Shown here: piece by piece, positions 20,845-64,000 of the stretch
Layout: each line of letters starts with the position of its first letter
How positions within the stretch are numbered: position 1 is the stretch's first letter
Assembly: GCF_000422885.1 (NCBI RefSeq)
Contig: NZ_KE383942.1
Span: forward strand, 127,353-191,352
Source of the DNA: Ottowia thiooxydans DSM 14619
Lineage (GTDB): Bacteria > Pseudomonadota > Gammaproteobacteria > Burkholderiales > Burkholderiaceae_C
Direction of reading: 5' to 3'
Length of the DNA stretch: 64,000 nt
Made by a program: the position numbers and the translations under genes
The notes under the pieces: model-generated
Seen by the model: only the letters and a program-made list of their open reading frames with translations
The model's database searches: none
What the model was told of the DNA's origin: nothing

Positions 20845-22176
20845 ATGAGCAGCACTCCAAAGCAATTGCACTTAGGCGCTTTTATGCGCCCGGTCAGCAT
20901 CCACACTGGTGCTTGGCGTTATCCGGGCGCGTGGCGCGACGCCAATTTCAACTTCGAGCGCCTCAAGACTTTGGCGCAAGCGCTGGAGCGTGCTTGCTTC
21001 GATGCCTTCTTCATGGCAGATCATTTGGCGGTGTTGAATATGCCGATCGAATCTCTGCAGCGCAGCCATACGGTCAGCTCATTCGAGCCGTTCACTTTGT
21101 TGTCGGCGCTGGCGCAACACACGACACGTCTTGGTCTGGTCGCCACTGCGTCGACTACCTTTGACGAGCCTTTCCACATTGCCCGGCGCTTTGCCTCGCT
21201 GGATCATCTAAGCGGTGGCCGCGCGGGCTGGAACATCGTGACCACTTCCAATCCTGATGCGGCGCTGAACTTTGGCCGCAGCGAGTCGATGGAACACGAC
21301 GAGCGCTACGCTCGTGCGCGTGAGTTCTACAGTGTAGTCACGGGTCTATGGGACAGTTGGGCCGACGACGCATTCGTGCGTGATGCGGAAAGCGGTAGAT
21401 TTTTCGATCCAGCGCGCTTGCACGTGCTGAACCACCGTGGCAAATATCTTTCAGTGCGTGGCCCGCTGCACATTGCACGACCCGTACAGGGTTGGCCCGT
21501 TATCGTGCAAGCGGGCGCCTCAGAGGCTGGCCGCCAACTTGCGGCAGAAACCGCGGAGGTGGTGTTTTCAGCGCCCGGTACCCTGGAGAACGGACGCCGG
21601 TTCTATACCGATATAAAGAGCCGCATGCGCGTTGTGGGTCGCAACCCGGACCATTTAAAGATTTTGCCCGGCGCCTTCGTCGTGGTCGGCGATACGCTCG
21701 AGCAAGCGCGCGGGATCCGGAGCCGGCTCGACAGCCTGGTACACGAAGATAGCGCCATCGCTTCTCTCTCGATCGCGTTGGGGCACGATGTGTCGGGTTT
21801 CGAGCTGGATCAACCGCTCCCTGAGATCCCTCCTACCAATGCCAGTCAGAGCAGCCGTGAGCGGGCGATCGAACTCGGTCAACGGGAGAACCTCACAGTG
21901 CGCCAACTTGCGCAGCGCCTGGGGGGTTATTCTGGTTTGGCCTTTGTGGGGACCCCTGAGTCCATAGCTGACGAGATGCAACTGTGGCTGGAAACCGGCG
22001 CCAGTGATGGGTTTAACGTGATGTTCCCATGGCTACCCGGTGGCTTGCTGGATTTCGTGAACAAGGTCGTGCCTGAGCTTCAGCGCCGGGGAATTTTCCG
22101 GCGCGCCTACCAGGGCAACACTTTGCGCGAGCACCTGGGATTGCCCCGCCCAGGCAATCAGTTCTTCGCTGGATGA
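20845..22176 (+). CDS. LLM-class flavin-dependent monooxygenase (NtaA/SnaA/DszA type)
   Basis: The 443-residue protein has the NtaA/SnaA/DszA layout: LHLGAFMRPVSIHTGAWRYP at the start, FDAFFMADHLAV, DHLSGGRAGWNIVTTSNP and WPVIVQAGASEAGRQLAA. Members use FMNH2 from a partner reductase to oxidise C-S, C-N or chelate substrates (for example sulfones and nitrilotriacetate). The ATG at 20845 begins the family homology; in-frame codons further upstream look non-homologous. The neighbouring FMN reductase and acireductone dioxygenase support a sulfur-linked role, but the substrate is unknown. Confidence 0.9.
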   Translation: MSSTPKQLHLGAFMRPVSIHTGAWRYPGAWRDANFNFERLKTLAQALERACFDAFFMADHLAVLNMPIESLQRSHTVSSFEPFTLLSALAQHTTRLGLVATASTTFDEPFHIARRFASLDHLSGGRAGWNIVTTSNPDAALNFGRSESMEHDERYARAREFYSVVTGLWDSWADDAFVRDAESGRFFDPARLHVLNHRGKYLSVRGPLHIARPVQGWPVIVQAGASEAGRQLAAETAEVVFSAPGTLENGRRFYTDIKSRMRVVGRNPDHLKILPGAFVVVGDTLEQARGIRSRLDSLVHEDSAIASLSIALGHDVSGFELDQPLPEIPPTNASQSSRERAIELGQRENLTVRQLAQRLGGYSGLAFVGTPESIADEMQLWLETGASDGFNVMFPWLPGGLLDFVNKVVPELQRRGIFRRAYQGNTLREHLGLPRPGNQFFAG

Positions 22177-22486
22177 TCCGGTTTGAGGGTTGGCCACCAA
22201 CAGGTTTGAACACGGTGCCTCCAGCGATCGTGCTCCCAGCGCGCCCTTCTGTCGGAGTTGGGATCGTGGGTAATTTTCAGAAACTGTGCTCTGGTTGATG
22301 CCGTGTTGACCTAGGTCATTAATTATTCCAACCTGCGGTGTCAGAATAAAAATGCGAATCAATTGCATTTAGGGGCGGAATTTCCATTGCTGTGCGCTAT
22401 CGCGCGGCTGGAGTTCTGACGAGGCGGGGCAATGGATCAGTCCGTTGTGCTATCAGCTCGTGCCCGAGACAGAAGCACTGAACACT
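22177..22486. promoter_or_regulatory. Leader of the CobN-like operon
   Basis: This 310-bp gap has an AT-rich part around 22310-22375 that holds a Fur-box-like palindrome (separate entry). I looked for a cobalamin riboswitch B12-box and saw none. The last 100 bp are GC-rich with no clear hairpin. Confidence 0.4.
22351..22369. promoter_or_regulatory. Fur-box-like palindrome
   Basis: AATGCGAATCAATTGCATT is a near-perfect inverted repeat built from the AATGC/GCATT arms typical of Fur boxes in betaproteobacteria. It lies about 118 bp before the CobN-like gene, so iron repression of the operon is likely. Confidence 0.6.
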
Positions 22487-25400
22487 ATGTTGAGACTCAA
22501 GAGATGGCTGCTTTGCGCTGTCATGCTGTTAATGGCCGGCGTGGTGCATGCAGCATCCGTGCTGTTTGTTGCCACTGGCAATGTGCCCGCAGGGAAATTT
22601 CATCAGCTTGATGAGATAGCGCGGCCGTTAGGCTTGAAGGTCGAAGTACGTTTTCTGAATAGTCTTCCCTCCGATGTGGATGGCGGGCTTTGGCGTGGTT
22701 ATGACGCCGTCTTCTTTGACAGCTATCTGCAAGACGAGGTACGCGCCCATCTTGCCCGCGCGCTGCCCTCGCTCGCGGTGCCGAACGCCTGGCTTTATGA
22801 CGCCCGTCCTGCCTGGGGCGGCGGGCTGCCAGAGACTGTGGCGCAACGGCTTATTCGCTACTACGGTAGTGGTGGGCGGCAGAACTTCGAAGGGTTCTTT
22901 GTGACGCTGGCAGCCCAGCTCCAGGGGCGTGATGCCATGGCGTCGGCACCCGATCCCGTGGTATTTCCAAAAACCGGTGTATATCACCCGCGTACGAAGG
23001 GGTTGGTCATGGCTGACCCCGTGGCGTACTTGCGAACGCAGGGAAGCAATCCACCGGAGGCGGGGCGTCGTCCGGTGATTGGAATCTCATTGCATCAGCA
23101 ATACATCGCATCGATGCAGACAGTTTTCATCGATGACCTGATCGCACGTATTGAAGCCGCAGGAGGTATTGCGCTGCCGTTCTATACCCCCATGCTTGAT
23201 GCTGGCGGCTTCACTCGCGTGCTGCAACCGGGCGGAGAAGGTTCGCCCGTGCTAGCGGATGCACTCATCAATACCCAAATCATCTTGAACGCGGATGAGC
23301 GCCGCGCGGAATTTACACGCATGGGCATCCCCGTGGTACAGGCCATGGCTTACCGACGTGGAGGTGAGGCTGAGTGGGCAGCTAATCCACAGGGCGTGCC
23401 GCTCATGGATGTGCCGTTCTACCTGGCGCAGCCTGAGTACGCGGGTGTGGTGGATATCCAGGTTACGGCTGCCACGCGCGCTGGAGATGAGCAGATCATG
23501 CCTATTTCCGCGCAGGCCGCCGCCTTGGTGGGAAAAGCCATGAACATGGTGAAGCTGCAACGCAAAGCGAACTCAGAAAAACGTCTGGCTGTGTTCTTCT
23601 GGAATTACCCGCCGGGCGAGAAAAATTTCTCAGCTTCGTTCCTCAACGTGCCTCGCAGTATGCAGGCCATGCTTTCAGCATTGCGCGGTGCGGGTTATGA
23701 CACGGAGCCTCAGCTTGAGGATCCGCTTGTGGAAAAGCTGCAGCGCCTGCTCGCACCCGCCTACCGCGATGGCATGCTTGCGCCGCTGCTTCGCGACAAT
23801 CTGGCGGAGCGTCTTCCTGTGAAGGAGTACCGGACCTGGCTGGCCACTCTACCGGCTGCCACGCAAATTGCTTTGAAAGACAGCTGGGGTGCACCCGAAG
23901 ATTCTTCTATGGTGCTGCGCGAAGATGGGCAAGCGTTTTTCGTGATTCCGCGGCTCCTTCTAGGCAAGCTTGCATTGCTGCCGCAACCGCCTCGGGGTGA
24001 AAAGTGGGCAGACAAGGAAAAGTCTCTCTATCACTCCACGAGCGCGTGGCCCTCGCACCATTACCTGGCTGTCTATCTGTGGGCCCGACAGCATGCAGGT
24101 GATGCTTTCGTGCATTTCGGCACACATGGCACGCAGGAGTGGTTACCCGGAAAGGAGCGCGGCCTCGCCGTCACCGACCCGGGGATGCTGGCAGTGGGTG
24201 ACGTACCAGTGGCTTATCCCTACATTGCTGACAACATCGGGGAGGCTCAGCAGGCACGCCGTCGCGGCCGTGCGGTGATCGTGAGCCATCAAACGCCGCC
24301 GTTTCAACCAGCAGGGTTGCACGCACAACTTACCGATCTTCACGACCTGCTGCACGCTTGGATGGCACAAGATGAGGGTGCAGTGAAGGACCGTATTGCG
24401 GTGGATCTACTGGCGAGCGCAGACAAGCAGCGCATCGTCGCTGATATGGGGACTACTACAGCACAGGCGCGTGCTGATTTCCCTGCTTTCGCGAACTACT
24501 TGCACGCGCACCTGCATGAGCTGGCGGAAACGGCGCAACCGTTGGGCTTGCACTCACTGGGCGTCGCACCCGCTGATACGCACCGCTTGGGTACTGTGCT
24601 GCTGATGTTGGGTCGCCCGTACTGGGAGGCGGCTGCGCGGCACGCAGGCACGAAACCCGAGGACGTTGATGAAACGCTGGTCGGCGACTATGAGCGCATG
24701 GCTCAGACTGCACCGTACCAACTGCTCGAGCGCCACTTGATCCAGAGCGAGCGTGACGATGCACTGCCCGCACCGTTGCGCGCACAGATGGCGCAGGCTC
24801 GCCAGTGGTGGCAAGCCATCGGGGCGCAGAACGAATTTCCTGCTCTGCTAGCAGTCTTGGCTGGGCGCTACCTGGAAACTTCCTATGGCGGAGATCCCAT
24901 TAAAAACCCCGATGCCTACCCCACCGGCCGCAATCTCTATGGTTTCGACCCCTCGCGCGTTCCCACTCTTCAGGCGTGGGAAGCTGGCAAGCAGGCAGCT
25001 GAGCAACTTATCGCAGCCTATCGTGAGCAACACGGTGGCAGAGCGCCTGAGAAAATTACGTTCTCGCTCTGGTCGGTGGAAACCATGCGCCACCAGGGCA
25101 TGCTTGAGGCGCAGGCGCTTTGGCTTATGGGTGTTGAACCCGTATGGGATAAGGGCGGGCGGGTGACAGGCGTACGCCTTGTACCAAGGCAAACGCTTGG
25201 CCGTGCACGCGTAGACGTTGTGCTTTCCGCCACCGGCTTGTACCGCGACCACTTTCCCAACGCGATGCAGCAACTGGCCCGTGCAGTTCAGCTAGCAGCG
25301 AAAGCCGACGAACCAGACAATCCTTTGGCTGCTAATGCCCGTGCCATTGCTTCCCGGCTACGCGCCCGAGGGATGGAGGAGGGCGCCGCGCTGCGAGCAG

Positions 25401-26521
25401 GTCAGACACGCATCTTCTCATCGGAATCGGGCCGTTACGGAACCGGACTGGATGACGCGGTTCTCGCCACTGATACATGGAAGGGCAAAGAGGAAGGTGA
25501 TCGCAAGCTCGCTGAGCTCTACCTCTCGCGTATGCAGTACGCCTACGGGCCTGATGAATCGGAATGGGGCAGTTTGCCGGCGGGTGGCCAAGGCGCTGCG
25601 GGCAACCTCTATGCTGAGCACTTGGGCGGCACGCAGGCAGCGGTGCTCTCGCGCAGCTCCAACACCTATGGAATGCTGACAACCGATGATCCCTTCCAGT
25701 ATCTGGGGGGCATAGGGCTTGCGGTGCGCCATCTGGATGGTAAGGCGCCGCAACTATTCATCAGCAATCTGCGTGGCTCGGGCAGCGGGCGGGTCGAAGG
25801 CGCAGCACAGTTTCTGGCCAAGGAATTGGCGACACGCCAATTCCATCCAGGCTACATCAAGGGCCTGATGAAGGAAGGTTATGCGGGCACCCTCCAGGTA
25901 TTGGACGCCACCAATAATTTCTGGGGATGGACTGCCGCAGCAAGAGAGATCGTGCGCGATGACCAATGGCAGGAGATGGCCGATGTTTATGTCAAAGACA
26001 AACACCGCTTGGGCCTTGATGCCTGGTTCGAACGGCATAACCCTCACGCTCTCGCCCAGACGATAGAACGGATGCTTGAAGCTGCTCGCCAAGGCTACTG
26101 GCAGGCCGATAAAACATCCGTCCGCGACCTCAAGAACCGGTGGAGCGAACTCTCTCGCCGCTTTGATGTGCGCAGCGACAACGCTCGCTTCACTGCTTTC
26201 GTCGCGGAGGGAACATCTGTACGCGCCAGCGGCTTTGGCCTGGATGCTCCCGCCTTGGTGGCCGCAATTGCCACCAAGCAGGAGGTCACCCCTCAACCCT
26301 CGTCGGAACCTCAGGCAGAACCGGACTCAGCATCCACCCAGCCGGAAGATCCACCACAAGTCAGTGGTATGCGGCTCACTCCAGTGCAGCCCGCCGAACC
26401 ACCCCTTCCATTCAAACCTGCTGCTGCGGTGTTTGCGCTGCTGCTGGCCGCCGTGTCCGTATCCGGTGCATGGCGTCAGCGCTCTCGCTATCGTTTTTCC
26501 GAAGGACTTAAAGCACTATGA
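22487..26521 (+). CDS. Exported, membrane-anchored CobN-like chelatase (HmuS-like)
   Basis: The 1344-residue product is a CobN/BchH-type class I chelatase large subunit, with stretches such as FWNYPPGEKNFSASFLNVPRS, FVHFGTHGTQEWLPGKE, SLWSVETMRHQG and NNFWGWTAAAREIV. Unlike cytoplasmic CobN it starts with a signal peptide (MLRLKRWLLCAVMLLMAG, cleavage near VHAAS). It ends with a Pro-rich linker and one transmembrane helix (FALLLAAVSVSGAW) before basic residues. No CobS/CobT or ChlI/ChlD partner is nearby. Its ATGA overlap with an ExbB-like gene and the upstream Fur box point to metallo-tetrapyrrole handling at the cell envelope, as proposed for HmuS of haem-uptake loci. ATG 22487 gives the signal peptide. 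Confidence 0.88.
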   Translation: MLRLKRWLLCAVMLLMAGVVHAASVLFVATGNVPAGKFHQLDEIARPLGLKVEVRFLNSLPSDVDGGLWRGYDAVFFDSYLQDEVRAHLARALPSLAVPNAWLYDARPAWGGGLPETVAQRLIRYYGSGGRQNFEGFFVTLAAQLQGRDAMASAPDPVVFPKTGVYHPRTKGLVMADPVAYLRTQGSNPPEAGRRPVIGISLHQQYIASMQTVFIDDLIARIEAAGGIALPFYTPMLDAGGFTRVLQPGGEGSPVLADALINTQIILNADERRAEFTRMGIPVVQAMAYRRGGEAEWAANPQGVPLMDVPFYLAQPEYAGVVDIQVTAATRAGDEQIMPISAQAAALVGKAMNMVKLQRKANSEKRLAVFFWNYPPGEKNFSASFLNVPRSMQAMLSALRGAGYDTEPQLEDPLVEKLQRLLAPAYRDGMLAPLLRDNLAERLPVKEYRTWLATLPAATQIALKDSWGAPEDSSMVLREDGQAFFVIPRLLLGKLALLPQPPRGEKWADKEKSLYHSTSAWPSHHYLAVYLWARQHAGDAFVHFGTHGTQEWLPGKERGLAVTDPGMLAVGDVPVAYPYIADNIGEAQQARRRGRAVIVSHQTPPFQPAGLHAQLTDLHDLLHAWMAQDEGAVKDRIAVDLLASADKQRIVADMGTTTAQARADFPAFANYLHAHLHELAETAQPLGLHSLGVAPADTHRLGTVLLMLGRPYWEAAARHAGTKPEDVDETLVGDYERMAQTAPYQLLERHLIQSERDDALPAPLRAQMAQARQWWQAIGAQNEFPALLAVLAGRYLETSYGGDPIKNPDAYPTGRNLYGFDPSRVPTLQAWEAGKQAAEQLIAAYREQHGGRAPEKITFSLWSVETMRHQGMLEAQALWLMGVEPVWDKGGRVTGVRLVPRQTLGRARVDVVLSATGLYRDHFPNAMQQLARAVQLAAKADEPDNPLAANARAIASRLRARGMEEGAALRAGQTRIFSSESGRYGTGLDDAVLATDTWKGKEEGDRKLAELYLSRMQYAYGPDESEWGSLPAGGQGAAGNLYAEHLGGTQAAVLSRSSNTYGMLTTDDPFQYLGGIGLAVRHLDGKAPQLFISNLRGSGSGRVEGAAQFLAKELATRQFHPGYIKGLMKEGYAGTLQVLDATNNFWGWTAAAREIVRDDQWQEMADVYVKDKHRLGLDAWFERHNPHALAQTIERMLEAARQGYWQADKTSVRDLKNRWSELSRRFDVRSDNARFTAFVAEGTSVRASGFGLDAPALVAAIATKQEVTPQPSSEPQAEPDSASTQPEDPPQVSGMRLTPVQPAEPPLPFKPAAAVFALLLAAVSVSGAWRQRSRYRFSEGLKAL

Positions 26522-27045
26522 ACAATCCCATCGAATCGGCGATGTATGACGCCAGCCAGTTGTTTCTCTATCCCGTACTTATTGCCATCGCTGTGCTATT
26601 TGTGCACGCCTTCTACGCGCTGGGTGCGTTCATCTGGCAAGCTTGGCAACGTCACCGAAGGCAGGCAGGCGGCTTCGAATTGATGGTTGCACGCGCCCGC
26701 ACTCCTGGCCTTACGCTGACTGAATTGGAGGCGCTCGCTGTAAAACGTATGGAATTTGCGCGCATCGCCACGCGAGTGGCCCCCATGTTGGGCCTTGTGG
26801 CCACCATGATTCCCATGGGCCCGGCGCTGAAGGCCTTGGCAGATGGGCAATTCACAGACGTGTCTCGCAACCTCATGGTCGCGTTCTCCTCCGTGATTTT
26901 GGCGCTACTGGCCGCAGCCATCAGCTACACCGTGGTCAATGTGCGGAGACGCTGGTATGCAGTGGATCTGGCAGACATTGAGCAGGGCACCATCGTCCCA
27001 GCTTACGATCCCGTGGCGACGCTGGCTGTGGAGGGGGCACGATGA
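26518..27045 (+). CDS. MotA/TolQ/ExbB-family proton channel protein
   Basis: The 175-residue inner-membrane protein has three hydrophobic segments: about 15-38, about 84-105 with MLGLVATMIPMGPALKAL (compare the ExbB LGLLGTV-GMI motif), and about 118-140 (FSSVILALLAAAISYTVV). Its start overlaps the chelatase stop and its stop overlaps the next start, both as ATGA, so the three products are probably made in fixed ratio. It likely forms a proton-driven motor with the downstream DUF2149 protein, energising the chelatase or a linked receptor. Confidence 0.88.
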   Translation: MNNPIESAMYDASQLFLYPVLIAIAVLFVHAFYALGAFIWQAWQRHRRQAGGFELMVARARTPGLTLTELEALAVKRMEFARIATRVAPMLGLVATMIPMGPALKALADGQFTDVSRNLMVAFSSVILALLAAAISYTVVNVRRRWYAVDLADIEQGTIVPAYDPVATLAVEGAR

Positions 27046-27371
27046 GCCGGCTTCGTCTCATGGAGGATCTGGATGCAGACGATCCCATCTTGTCAGTCGT
27101 CAATTTGATCGACGTCTTCCTGGTCATCATCGCGGCGCTCCTGCTGGCTGTTGCCAATAGTACGGTCAACCCATTCAGCGCCGAATCCGTCACGGTCATC
27201 AAGAACCCCGGGAAGGAGAACATGGAAGTGATCATCAAGGATGGCCACAAGGTTGACCGCTATCGTGCCAGCGGAGAGATCGGCGAAGGCCAGGGGGCGA
27301 AGGCAGGTGTGGCCTACCGTCTCAAGGATGGCTCCATGGTCTACGTGCCGGAGCCTGGCGCGGGAGACTGA
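27042..27371 (+). CDS. DUF2149-family, ExbD-like small membrane protein
   Basis: The 109-residue product has one N-terminal transmembrane helix (residues about 19-39) and a short soluble C-terminal domain. The helix begins VVNLIDVFLVIIAALLLAV. The N-x-x-D-V-x-L-V pattern with Asp at position 24 closely mirrors ExbD/TolR, in which the equivalent Asp carries protons. DUF2149 proteins recur beside CobN-like genes. The gene is the last of a three-gene coupled operon and converges, 20 bp away, on the CoA-transferase at 27392. Confidence 0.85.
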   Translation: MSRLRLMEDLDADDPILSVVNLIDVFLVIIAALLLAVANSTVNPFSAESVTVIKNPGKENMEVIIKDGHKVDRYRASGEIGEGQGAKAGVAYRLKDGSMVYVPEPGAGD

Positions 27372-62980: not shown

Positions 62981-64000
62981 TCAGAAATCCATGGTCGCGG
63001 AAATGCTGAATGTGCGTGGCGCAGACAACACAATGCCACCTGAGCCAGCGCTGCCTTCCCAATAACTGCGGTTAGCGAGGTTCAGGATGTTGGCTCGAAT
63101 GGTGAGCGGACGGCCAAATGAGCGGGTGAGATAACGTGCGCCCAGATCCCAGCGAGCCCACCCTGGCAGCTTGAGGGTGTTCTGTGCATTCACGTACTGC
63201 GAGCCTGTCAACAAGGTGCGTGCCGTCAGCGTCAGGCCGGGCAGGAATGGTGTATCCCATTCCACGCCAGCATTGCTGATCCAGCGCGGAGCAACGATGG
63301 CGCTTTTGCCGTCGTTGGCGCCACCTTGCGTACGCACCTGCTTGGCTTGCATGTAGGTCACTCCACCCAGAATCCGCACACCGCGCACCACCTGGCCGAA
63401 TGCACTGACTTCAATTCCCCGGTTGCGTTGCTCCCCGTCCATCACATAGCGGTATCGATTGGGCGCGCTGCCAGGTACTGTGATGGCATTGGGTTGCCGT
63501 AGCTCGAAAAGCGCGATGGTGCCAATAACCTGGCCAAAATCGACCTTGACGCCCAGCTCCGTTTGTTTGGTCTTGATGGGAGGAAAGGCCTGACCGGCGT
63601 TCTCAGCGTCCGCAGGTGCCGTGGCGCCCGCGCTGAGCCCCTGGATGTAGTTTGCGTAGATGGATGTGTTGTTCCACGGTTTCAACACCAGGCCCACCGC
63701 TGGTGAATTGACTGATTTCCCATAACCGGAAACCCAGTTGTTCACAGGTGCTGTGCCAGCGTAGTTGTCGACAGTGATTTTCTGGCGCCGCATGCCCAGC
63801 GTGAGCTGAACGGCGCCGTCCTGCCAGGACATGGTGTCGGAGATGCCCACTGAAGCAAGTTTGGTTTCAGAAGCCTGGCGTGTATCCAGAAAGCCAGCAA
63901 AAGGCGCGCCTGTCTGAAAAGGGTTTTCAACGAAGACCGGGCGATGAAGGTTTGATGCGAAACCCTGCCACTGAGCGAAGGCGTAGCCCGCTGCGATATC
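62981..64000 (-). CDS. TonB-dependent siderophore receptor, C-terminal part (N-terminus beyond window)
   Basis: The minus frame is open from the window edge to the TGA at 62981, giving 339 residues of a beta-barrel. They show alternating strands: WNNTSIYANYIQGLS, TKQTELGVKVDF, RNRGIEVSAFGQVVRGVRIL, and the C-terminal TIRANILNLANRSYW, PRTFSISATMDF with terminal Phe. This fits the FhuE/FoxA-type siderophore receptors. The plug and signal are outside the window. It is coupled to the PepSY gene, consistent with an iron-uptake operon. Confidence 0.92.
   Translation of the reverse strand, partial: DIAAGYAFAQWQGFASNLHRPVFVENPFQTGAPFAGFLDTRQASETKLASVGISDTMSWQDGAVQLTLGMRRQKITVDNYAGTAPVNNWVSGYGKSVNSPAVGLVLKPWNNTSIYANYIQGLSAGATAPADAENAGQAFPPIKTKQTELGVKVDFGQVIGTIALFELRQPNAITVPGSAPNRYRYVMDGEQRNRGIEVSAFGQVVRGVRILGGVTYMQAKQVRTQGGANDGKSAIVAPRWISNAGVEWDTPFLPGLTLTARTLLTGSQYVNAQNTLKLPGWARWDLGARYLTRSFGRPLTIRANILNLANRSYWEGSAGSGGIVLSAPRTFSISATMDF

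Follow-up and report, generated by a model that had tools for sequence, protein, structure and literature searches.

An operon for a CobN-like, predicted periplasmic chelatase with a Fur-like box and a lost receptor gene in a relative of Acidovorax

The operon and its upstream region

The window analyzed here, a stretch of 64,000 nucleotides from contig NZ_KE383942.1 of Ottowia thiooxydans DSM 14619, a relative of Acidovorax and Diaphorobacter, carries on its forward strand three genes for a CobN-like chelatase of the BtuS/HmuS kind, predicted to be periplasmic and membrane-anchored, and for two small membrane proteins. The chelatase gene (22487-26521, 1344 amino acids) begins with ATG at 22487, with an alternative TTG start possible at 22445, and its product aligns to positions 2-1088 of the 1090 in the CobN-Mg_chel model PF02514 (3.5e-291). 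It is followed by an ExbB/TolQ/MotA-like, HmuU-like protein of 175 amino acids (26518-27045; MotA_ExbB, PF01618, 9e-07, 29.1 bits against a cut-off of 22.9) and an HmuV-like DUF2149 protein of 109 amino acids with one membrane helix (27042-27371; PF09919, 1.9e-29), with an ATGA overlap at each of the two junctions. A preliminary description had placed these overlapping genes in this order at 22351-27371, and its coordinates were confirmed. It had also proposed that the chelatase has a signal peptide and a C-terminal anchor, which agrees with the hydropathy (no signal-peptide program was used) of residues 1-22 (22487-22552) and about 1307-1325 (26405-26461), the two segments scoring 2.39 and 2.40 against a threshold of 1.6. 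Its third structural claim, that AAA+ partners are missing, holds for the operon and the adjoining genes; cobS, cobT, chlI and chlD elsewhere in the genome were not searched for. The gene is the only PF02514 gene in the genome (7.05 Mb in 78 contigs).

Upstream lies a palindromic Fur-like box, AATGCGAATCAATTGCATT (22351-22369, forward strand), with a score of 13.9 on a 19-base matrix derived from a Fur-box consensus, in which a C per arm was allowed after the boxes of the window and of the related locus L091 had been seen. When the 650 bases around the box were resampled at random 1000 times (first order), no resampling reached this score, and the pattern matches once in the window, against 0.27 matches expected with up to three mismatches. 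Between the box and the chelatase gene we found a feature absent from the preliminary description, GCGCGGCTGGAGTTCTGA (22402-22419, forward strand), which encodes ...A R L E F followed by a stop and is the 3' remnant of a lost gene for a TonB-dependent receptor. The receptor genes of loci L091 and L098 end in GCGCGGCTGGACTTCTAA and GCGCGGCTGGATTTCTGA, respectively, and the remnant sequence matches once in the window, 0.03 matches being expected by chance with up to two mismatches. Because the Fur-like box, the final receptor codons and the chelatase gene stand side by side, the arrangement looks like a near-exact deletion of the receptor gene, and the operon has lost the dedicated outer-membrane receptor that close relatives carry. 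The genome holds 25 Pfam matches to TonB-dependent receptors. Relocation of the lost gene within the genome was rejected, the best match to the L091 receptor being 30% identical and near hemS. A further TonB-dependent receptor gene runs off the end of the window (63077-64000, reverse strand).

The ratio of nonsynonymous to synonymous substitution rates (dN/dS) between the chelatase genes of the window and L091 is 0.054, with a dS of 1.46 that is near saturation; these rates show strong constraint on the gene, and the ratio says little on the period after receptor loss. The G+C content at third codon positions is 0.625 in the operon, 0.66-0.68 in the flanking genes and 0.916 in L091, and on these values a recent transfer from a high-GC donor was rejected. 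On the 5' side the operon is neighbored by genes for a multicopper oxidase, an FMN reductase, an ARD-like cupin protein and a luciferase-like monooxygenase, and on the 3' side, on the opposite strand, by one for a CoA-transferase, none of which suggests a function for it.

Branches of the family, regulation and key residues

Of 399 genomes in the family, 58 have DUF2149, and so do 18 of the 274 from the class (the Ottowia genome being counted in both); the comparison covered 81 fetched stretches from family and class genomes, nine named loci and 16 plasmid records. Genes were called by a method of our own, with some calls spoiled by shadow reading frames in GC-rich DNA, and all counts are of loci and not of independent events, near-duplicates such as L003/L077/L078 and L090/L101/L102 being included. 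The window belongs to branch A1 (order: receptor, chelatase, ExbB, DUF2149), comprising 32 loci (L003, L006, L010 and L062 plus 28 from the family search), and the nearest named relatives are Acidovorax sp. MR-S7 (83% identical) and Diaphorobacter nitroreducens (82%). Within the genus 6 of 29 genomes have a match; besides the Ottowia genome itself, two are at 65 and 66% and three at 30-36%. Branch A2 shares the A1 order and has different key residues. In branch B the order is ExbB, DUF2149, chelatase, and the genes cluster with BtuC- and BtuF-like genes (Pfam on L120), with a CobB family (Pfam on member L068) and with others that from their N-termini we take to be CobO, BluB, CobU and CobD. 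The HmuY type (L058-L060) reads receptor, HmuY, ExbB, DUF2149, chelatase, the HmuY being recognized by Pfam in L060 (PF14064, 7.6e-21) and by clustering in L058 and L059, and a class group (L066-L074, n = 9) reads chelatase, ExbB and a weakly matching DUF2149. Six genomes hold an A1 copy plus a B copy.

Excluded from the branch counts were L061, L063 and four loci (L110, L111, L118 and L134) with an ExbB-DUF2149 pair and no chelatase match in the stretch; a histidine kinase follows the pair in L110 (clustering) and in L111 and L118 (Pfam), L111 also has a response regulator, and a Sel1-repeat protein stands ahead of the pair in L111 and L118. The plasmid records hold further settings of the module. 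On a Runella slithyformis plasmid (L142, 2140-10174) a receptor, a 'urease accessory' protein, ExbB, DUF2149 and a CobN-like protein sit between hypF and hypC-hypD-hypE, which suggests nickel; in a Trichlorobacter lovleyi record the module is two genes from bzaF; and on a Diaphorobacter plasmid it is accompanied by three receptors, an ABC transporter and NnrS. The A1 operons of L003, L077, L078 and L146 are likewise surrounded by several receptors, an ABC transporter and NnrS.

Fur-like sites were counted by branch. Across the 1.545 Mb of fetched loci the matrix scored 9.9 or more 57 times, true sites being part of this background, which comes to 0.30 per 8 kb. In the 8 kb ahead of the chelatase gene, 31 of the 32 A1 loci have such a site, compared with 0/5 in A2, 1/9 in the class group and 2/27 in B, where the two are sisters. 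All three HmuY-type loci have one, strong in L058 and L059 and weak in L060 (937 bases before the chelatase, within the operon), and L065 has three. In 20 of the 32 A1 loci a box was found in the 550 bases taken as the promoter of the called receptor gene (0.02 expected for each); some other A1 hits are distant from the called receptor (7.3 kb in L006) and may be chance. Upstream of their receptor genes, L079 has the window box except for its central base and L091 a close one. The palindrome singled out in the preliminary description is thus real, beyond chance and conserved in branch A1. A feature of the Fur regulon, a putative Fur box at the promoter that is kept in relatives, was found, and the operon is probably turned on by iron shortage. 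Cobalamin riboswitches were found by Rfam in all seven B loci scanned; L144 has one too, behind DUF2149, and so does L071, a class-group locus; no match was obtained in the window, in four scanned A1 loci or in five A2 loci, and riboswitch control of the window operon was rejected on this ground. Control by Zur was rejected as well, none of the 32 A1 loci having a Zur-like site at a threshold of 9 (scored against a Zur consensus; other groups were listed at a threshold of 8).

The receptors divide branch A1. Twenty-two of the 32 are CirA-like (nearest to that of L091) and nine PhuR-like (nearest to that of L101), with L107 neither. The L091 receptor matches the colicin I receptor (2.2e-80) and is below the cut-off of every NCBI model listed, and the L101 receptor matches PhuR (8the, 3.2e-91) and exceeds the cut-off of both NCBI haem-receptor models. 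A gene of the haem-binding family ChaN (PF04187; 7.3e-35 in L101) stands near the module in eight of the 32 loci, seven with PhuR-like receptors and L107. PhuR-like receptors and ChaN neighbors therefore link one part of A1 to haem, and the Fur-like boxes link the window's part to iron, albeit with a CirA-like receptor.

The best match of the chelatase in the PDB is HmuS (9d26, 2.3e-113), and it scores 1370 bits against a cut-off of 1248 on the NCBI model NF004644, 'cobaltochelatase subunit CobN'. A signal and an anchor together are predicted in 76 of the 81 non-reference chelatases and in none of the nine cytoplasmic references, at least three of the five chelatases without both being cut or mis-called frames. 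For one of the 81, in L147, tblastn of its stretch showed no ExbB and no DUF2149. In a FastTree phylogeny of 61 sequences, which HmuS entered as two fragments, HmuS falls within the clade of exported chelatases, apart from BchH and from six cytoplasmic CobN (support 0.926). A structure model of the window protein (predicted local distance difference test score, pLDDT, 64.8; predicted template-modeling score 0.48) ranked CobN 7c6o, HmuS 9d26 and ChlH in Foldseek with query template-modeling scores of 0.33-0.43 (full-length hits), values that confirm the fold and not the subtype.

The residue alignment has 91 rows, including the HmuS fragments, seven cytoplasmic CobN and two BchH, and its table omits the split or cut frames L080 and L085 (A1), L133 (B) and L060 (HmuY type). 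Kept in the window are, in HmuS numbers, His-506, His-538, Glu-577, Ser-1014, Ser-1199 and Asp-1208; His-538, in HFG(T/A)HG, is His-547 of the window's HFGTHG (residues 543-548, 24113-24130). At the pair that corresponds to HmuS His-1209 and Glu-1212, Asp/Gln was found in 30/30 A1 relatives and 26/26 B sequences as well as in L058, L059 and L065, Asp/Asp in 9/9 of the class group, His/Glu in HmuS, L103 and 6/6 of A2, and His/Asp in both BchH. That His or Asp here tracks a porphyrin or corrin substrate is an observation on few references, and A1 loci with PhuR-like receptors and ChaN, which keep Asp, and A2, which has His and lacks the Fur-like box, both argue against a strict rule. The A2 members (L064, L095, L104, L105, L106 and L144) have the HmuS-like His/Glu and no His-Gly-Arg. 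L103 (genome G289) encodes an HmuS-like protein with His-Gly-Arg, Phe-502, Trp-1202 and ISLDHVYEFMGG. The protein lacks Gln-299, Ser-1014 and Gln-1198, and its long insertion is not rich in methionine; its genome is filed in the same family as that of the window, and transfer or contamination is possible. Five histidines, H612, H619, H623, H673 and H677 (24320-24355 and 24503-24517), are invariant in A1 and missing in HmuS, three of them being also present in the sole B sequence compared, and H869 and H1120 occur in B and A2 examples and are absent from HmuS and the two CobN compared.

Proposed iron removal and its alternatives

The explanation that we favor, while giving it only an even chance, is an iron-starvation operon of the BtuS/HmuS kind that takes iron from haem or another chelate in the periplasm. 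At low iron, Fur would leave the promoter at 22351, and the chelatase and the ExbB-like/DUF2149 pair would be made. An outer-membrane receptor would bring haem or another iron-bearing tetrapyrrole or chelate to the periplasm; as the dedicated receptor is gone, the substrate would have to come via another TonB-dependent receptor. The substrate would bind in the central cleft of the inner-membrane-anchored class I chelatase, which would run in reverse and extract the iron, and a general iron importer would take the released iron in. In this scheme we infer iron over other metals, haem as the ligand, removal over insertion, and a drive by protons, with the ExbB-DUF2149 pair, a stator of the ExbBD/MotAB type, doing for the chelatase what the ATP-driven AAA+ motor does for CobN and ChlH.

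The proton drive is proposed because stator-like parts are present. The DUF2149 protein has no Pfam match to ExbD, and its structure model (pLDDT 58.3) is too weak for fold comparison. Its membrane helix contains an N-L-I-D motif (Asp at residue 24) that is invariant in ten aligned sequences and occurs in some form in 48 of 49 members of the gene family (43 by pattern and five by eye, with one mis-called frame). In hhalign the membrane aspartate was aligned with that of ExbD at a probability of 54%, compared with 0.2-0.7% for three controls. Such an ExbD-like aspartate is consistent, as far as an alignment can tell, with a proton-driven motor.

The preliminary description had likened the operon to HmuS, and the likeness stands in that the chelatase is predicted to be exported, falls in the same clade and has the same partners. 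Several findings weigh against carrying it further or against the favored explanation. The HmuS motif LSLDHxxEFMGG with His-1209 and Glu-1212 is replaced in the window by LTTDDPFQYLGG, in which Asp-1067 and Asp-1068 (25685-25690) correspond to HmuS Asp-1208 and His-1209 and Gln-1071 to Glu-1212, and Asp/Gln is also the pair of five of the seven cytoplasmic CobN (Asp/Ala and Gly/Gln in the others). The head site of HmuS, His-254 with its His-Gly-Arg (254-256) and Gln-299, is missing, the window having Ile-Ile-Leu and Phe, and so is the methionine-rich insertion (122 amino acids with 3 Met, versus 283 amino acids in HmuS). The A2 subgroup that does have His/Glu shows a Fur-like box in none of five loci. 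The receptor of the closest relatives resembles CirA and not a haem receptor, and the window operon has no receptor of its own. A HemS gene near another TonB-dependent receptor (G000:C8:89712-94183) has the look of a classical haem-uptake locus, and the cell may therefore take up haem independently of the operon. No sigma-70-like promoter match was found in 22150-22600 and no clear Shine-Dalgarno sequence was seen by eye before the ATG at 22487. Lastly, the accessible part of the HmuS work (PMC12583661) reports a drive by NADH and mentions no proton motive force. The protein shares a clade with HmuS and lacks three of its defining features, and we therefore class it, from its sequence, as a member of the broad exported BtuS/HmuS-type CobN-like family and not as HmuS proper. 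The genome also lacks a PF01126 haem oxygenase (other kinds were not searched) and has a ChaN gene elsewhere.

Another iron source would explain the CirA-like receptor. If the chelatase fold had been recruited to open a siderophore, catecholate or other, or another non-tetrapyrrole chelate, the CirA-like receptor beside the chelatase in 22 of the 32 A1 loci, including those of the closest relatives, and the Fur-like boxes would both be accounted for. We consider this unlikely, given that the characterized kinds of the superfamily, HmuS, CobN and ChlH, all act on tetrapyrroles (PMC12583661), and that nine of the 32 A1 receptors are PhuR-like and the chelatases beside them, where aligned, also have Asp/Gln. 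A periplasmic corrinoid enzyme that, as branch B may do, takes cobalt out of cobalamin or one of its precursors or puts it in is a slightly poorer candidate. It fits the Asp/Gln pair, which the window shares with five of the seven true CobN and with all 26 B sequences, and the B12 clusters and riboswitches of branch B, whose members (L108-L138) are predicted periplasmic 'cobaltochelatases' in likely corrinoid salvagers. Neither the window nor any of four A1 relatives scanned has a cobalamin riboswitch, which speaks against it, as do the Fur-like boxes they have and the six genomes that hold both A1 and B copies, in which B would cover the B12 work. The genome, moreover, lacks CbiC/CobH, one marker gene for corrin ring synthesis, which makes B12 synthesis unlikely; CbiC was absent from 29 of 30 relatives tested (22/23 with a B copy and 7/7 with A1 only).

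That the operon is a decaying orphan, cut off from its substrate by the receptor loss and left with useless genes, is improbable to a similar or marginally greater degree. The receptor is missing, the 5' end is rearranged with no clear ribosome site by eye, and a match is missing from 23 of the 29 genomes in the genus, only two others reaching 65-66%; the three frames, however, are intact with their overlaps kept, the third-position GC content fits the genome, and dN/dS is low, though this mostly reflects the time before the loss. Acquisition of zinc (or of nickel or cobalt) is, to our judgment, the least probable of these alternatives. Its model is the Zur-regulated PA1922-PA1925 locus of P. 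aeruginosa, which comprises a CirA-like receptor, a CobN-like, an ExbD-annotated and a DUF2149 protein (PMC9431628) and which is induced 44.7- to 147.3-fold when znuA is deleted (PMC4542158) and has its PA1922 promoter shifted by Zur (PMC8531726). The Runella copy amid hydrogenase genes and the invariant histidine patches of A1 (with the B overlap noted above) also suit such metals. Zur-like sites are, however, absent from all 32 A1 loci, against Fur-like sites in 31, the kinship with PA1923 is one of gene order and annotation, and cobN and exbD of P. plecoglossicida did not respond to the loss of znuC in the part of PMC8129501 available.

Beyond the single operon, it is conceivable, if rather doubtful, that the exported CobN-like family as a whole parallels the class I chelatases powered by ATP but is driven by protons, with metals assigned by swaps of receptor and regulator. 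One module would then serve iron under Fur, zinc under Zur, cobalt under cobalamin riboswitches and nickel in hydrogenase loci, and the window would hold the betaproteobacterial iron copy, with a CobN-type Asp in place of the axial His of HmuS.

Relation to known systems

Since BtuS and HmuS have already been described, the operon is known in kind. HmuS of Bacteroidota removes iron from haem, and it is driven by NADH in vitro without a need for ATP, as stated in the accessible sections of PMC12583661, in which HmuU and HmuV are assigned to powering haem import. The preliminary description had given this iron removal correctly and had placed CobN-like and ExbB-like genes in the hmu loci, where DUF2149 genes occur too. 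Partial texts also cover P. gingivalis HmuS (PMC13227078), an iron stimulon including hmu products (PMC10434189), the BtuS family described by Rodionov 2003 (as cited in PMC6460266), BtuS in Methanosarcina (PMC10846266) and, again, the Zur-regulated PA1922-1925 genes (PMC8456098). Within the open-access literature, as represented by such excerpts, we recognized no Fur-regulated BtuS/HmuS case from proteobacteria. Branch A1 stands apart as a probable iron branch whose cleft residues are of the CobN type, and its copy in the window has lost the receptor. Oxygen-free removal of iron from haem has recently been shown in Bacteroidota (PMC12583661), and a relative in Comamonadaceae under the control of Fur would widen the finding to proteobacteria, while the recurring ExbB-DUF2149 partners raise the testable question of a drive by the proton gradient. 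As the genome has no CbiC, the model name 'cobaltochelatase subunit CobN' misleads pathway prediction.

The operon resembles the HmuS/HmuU/HmuV system of B. thetaiotaomicron (PDB 9d26) in superfamily, tree clade, predicted export and anchor, ExbB-like and DUF2149 partners and, as predicted from the Fur-like box, control by iron starvation, and differs from it in having no hmuT, hmuY or hmuR in the operon and in the cleft residues, head site and insertion described above. It differs from the BtuS family in its Fur-type box, and the accessible BtuS literature does not describe this betaproteobacterial branch. With PA1922-PA1925 it shares the A1 order of receptor, CobN-like, ExbB/D-like and DUF2149 genes, whereas that locus is Zur-regulated and the window has a Fur-type box and no receptor. 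Cytoplasmic CobN, which works with CobS and CobT, has the same fold and Asp/Gln cleft pair; in contrast, the window protein is predicted to be exported and anchored, adjoins no AAA+ gene and comes from a genome without CbiC. Lastly, the small membrane proteins correspond to ExbB-ExbD, TolQ-TolR and MotA-MotB in the MotA_ExbB domain and in a single-helix partner with a membrane Asp, with the differences that this partner is a DUF2149 protein with no ExbD Pfam match and that the driven protein would be the chelatase.

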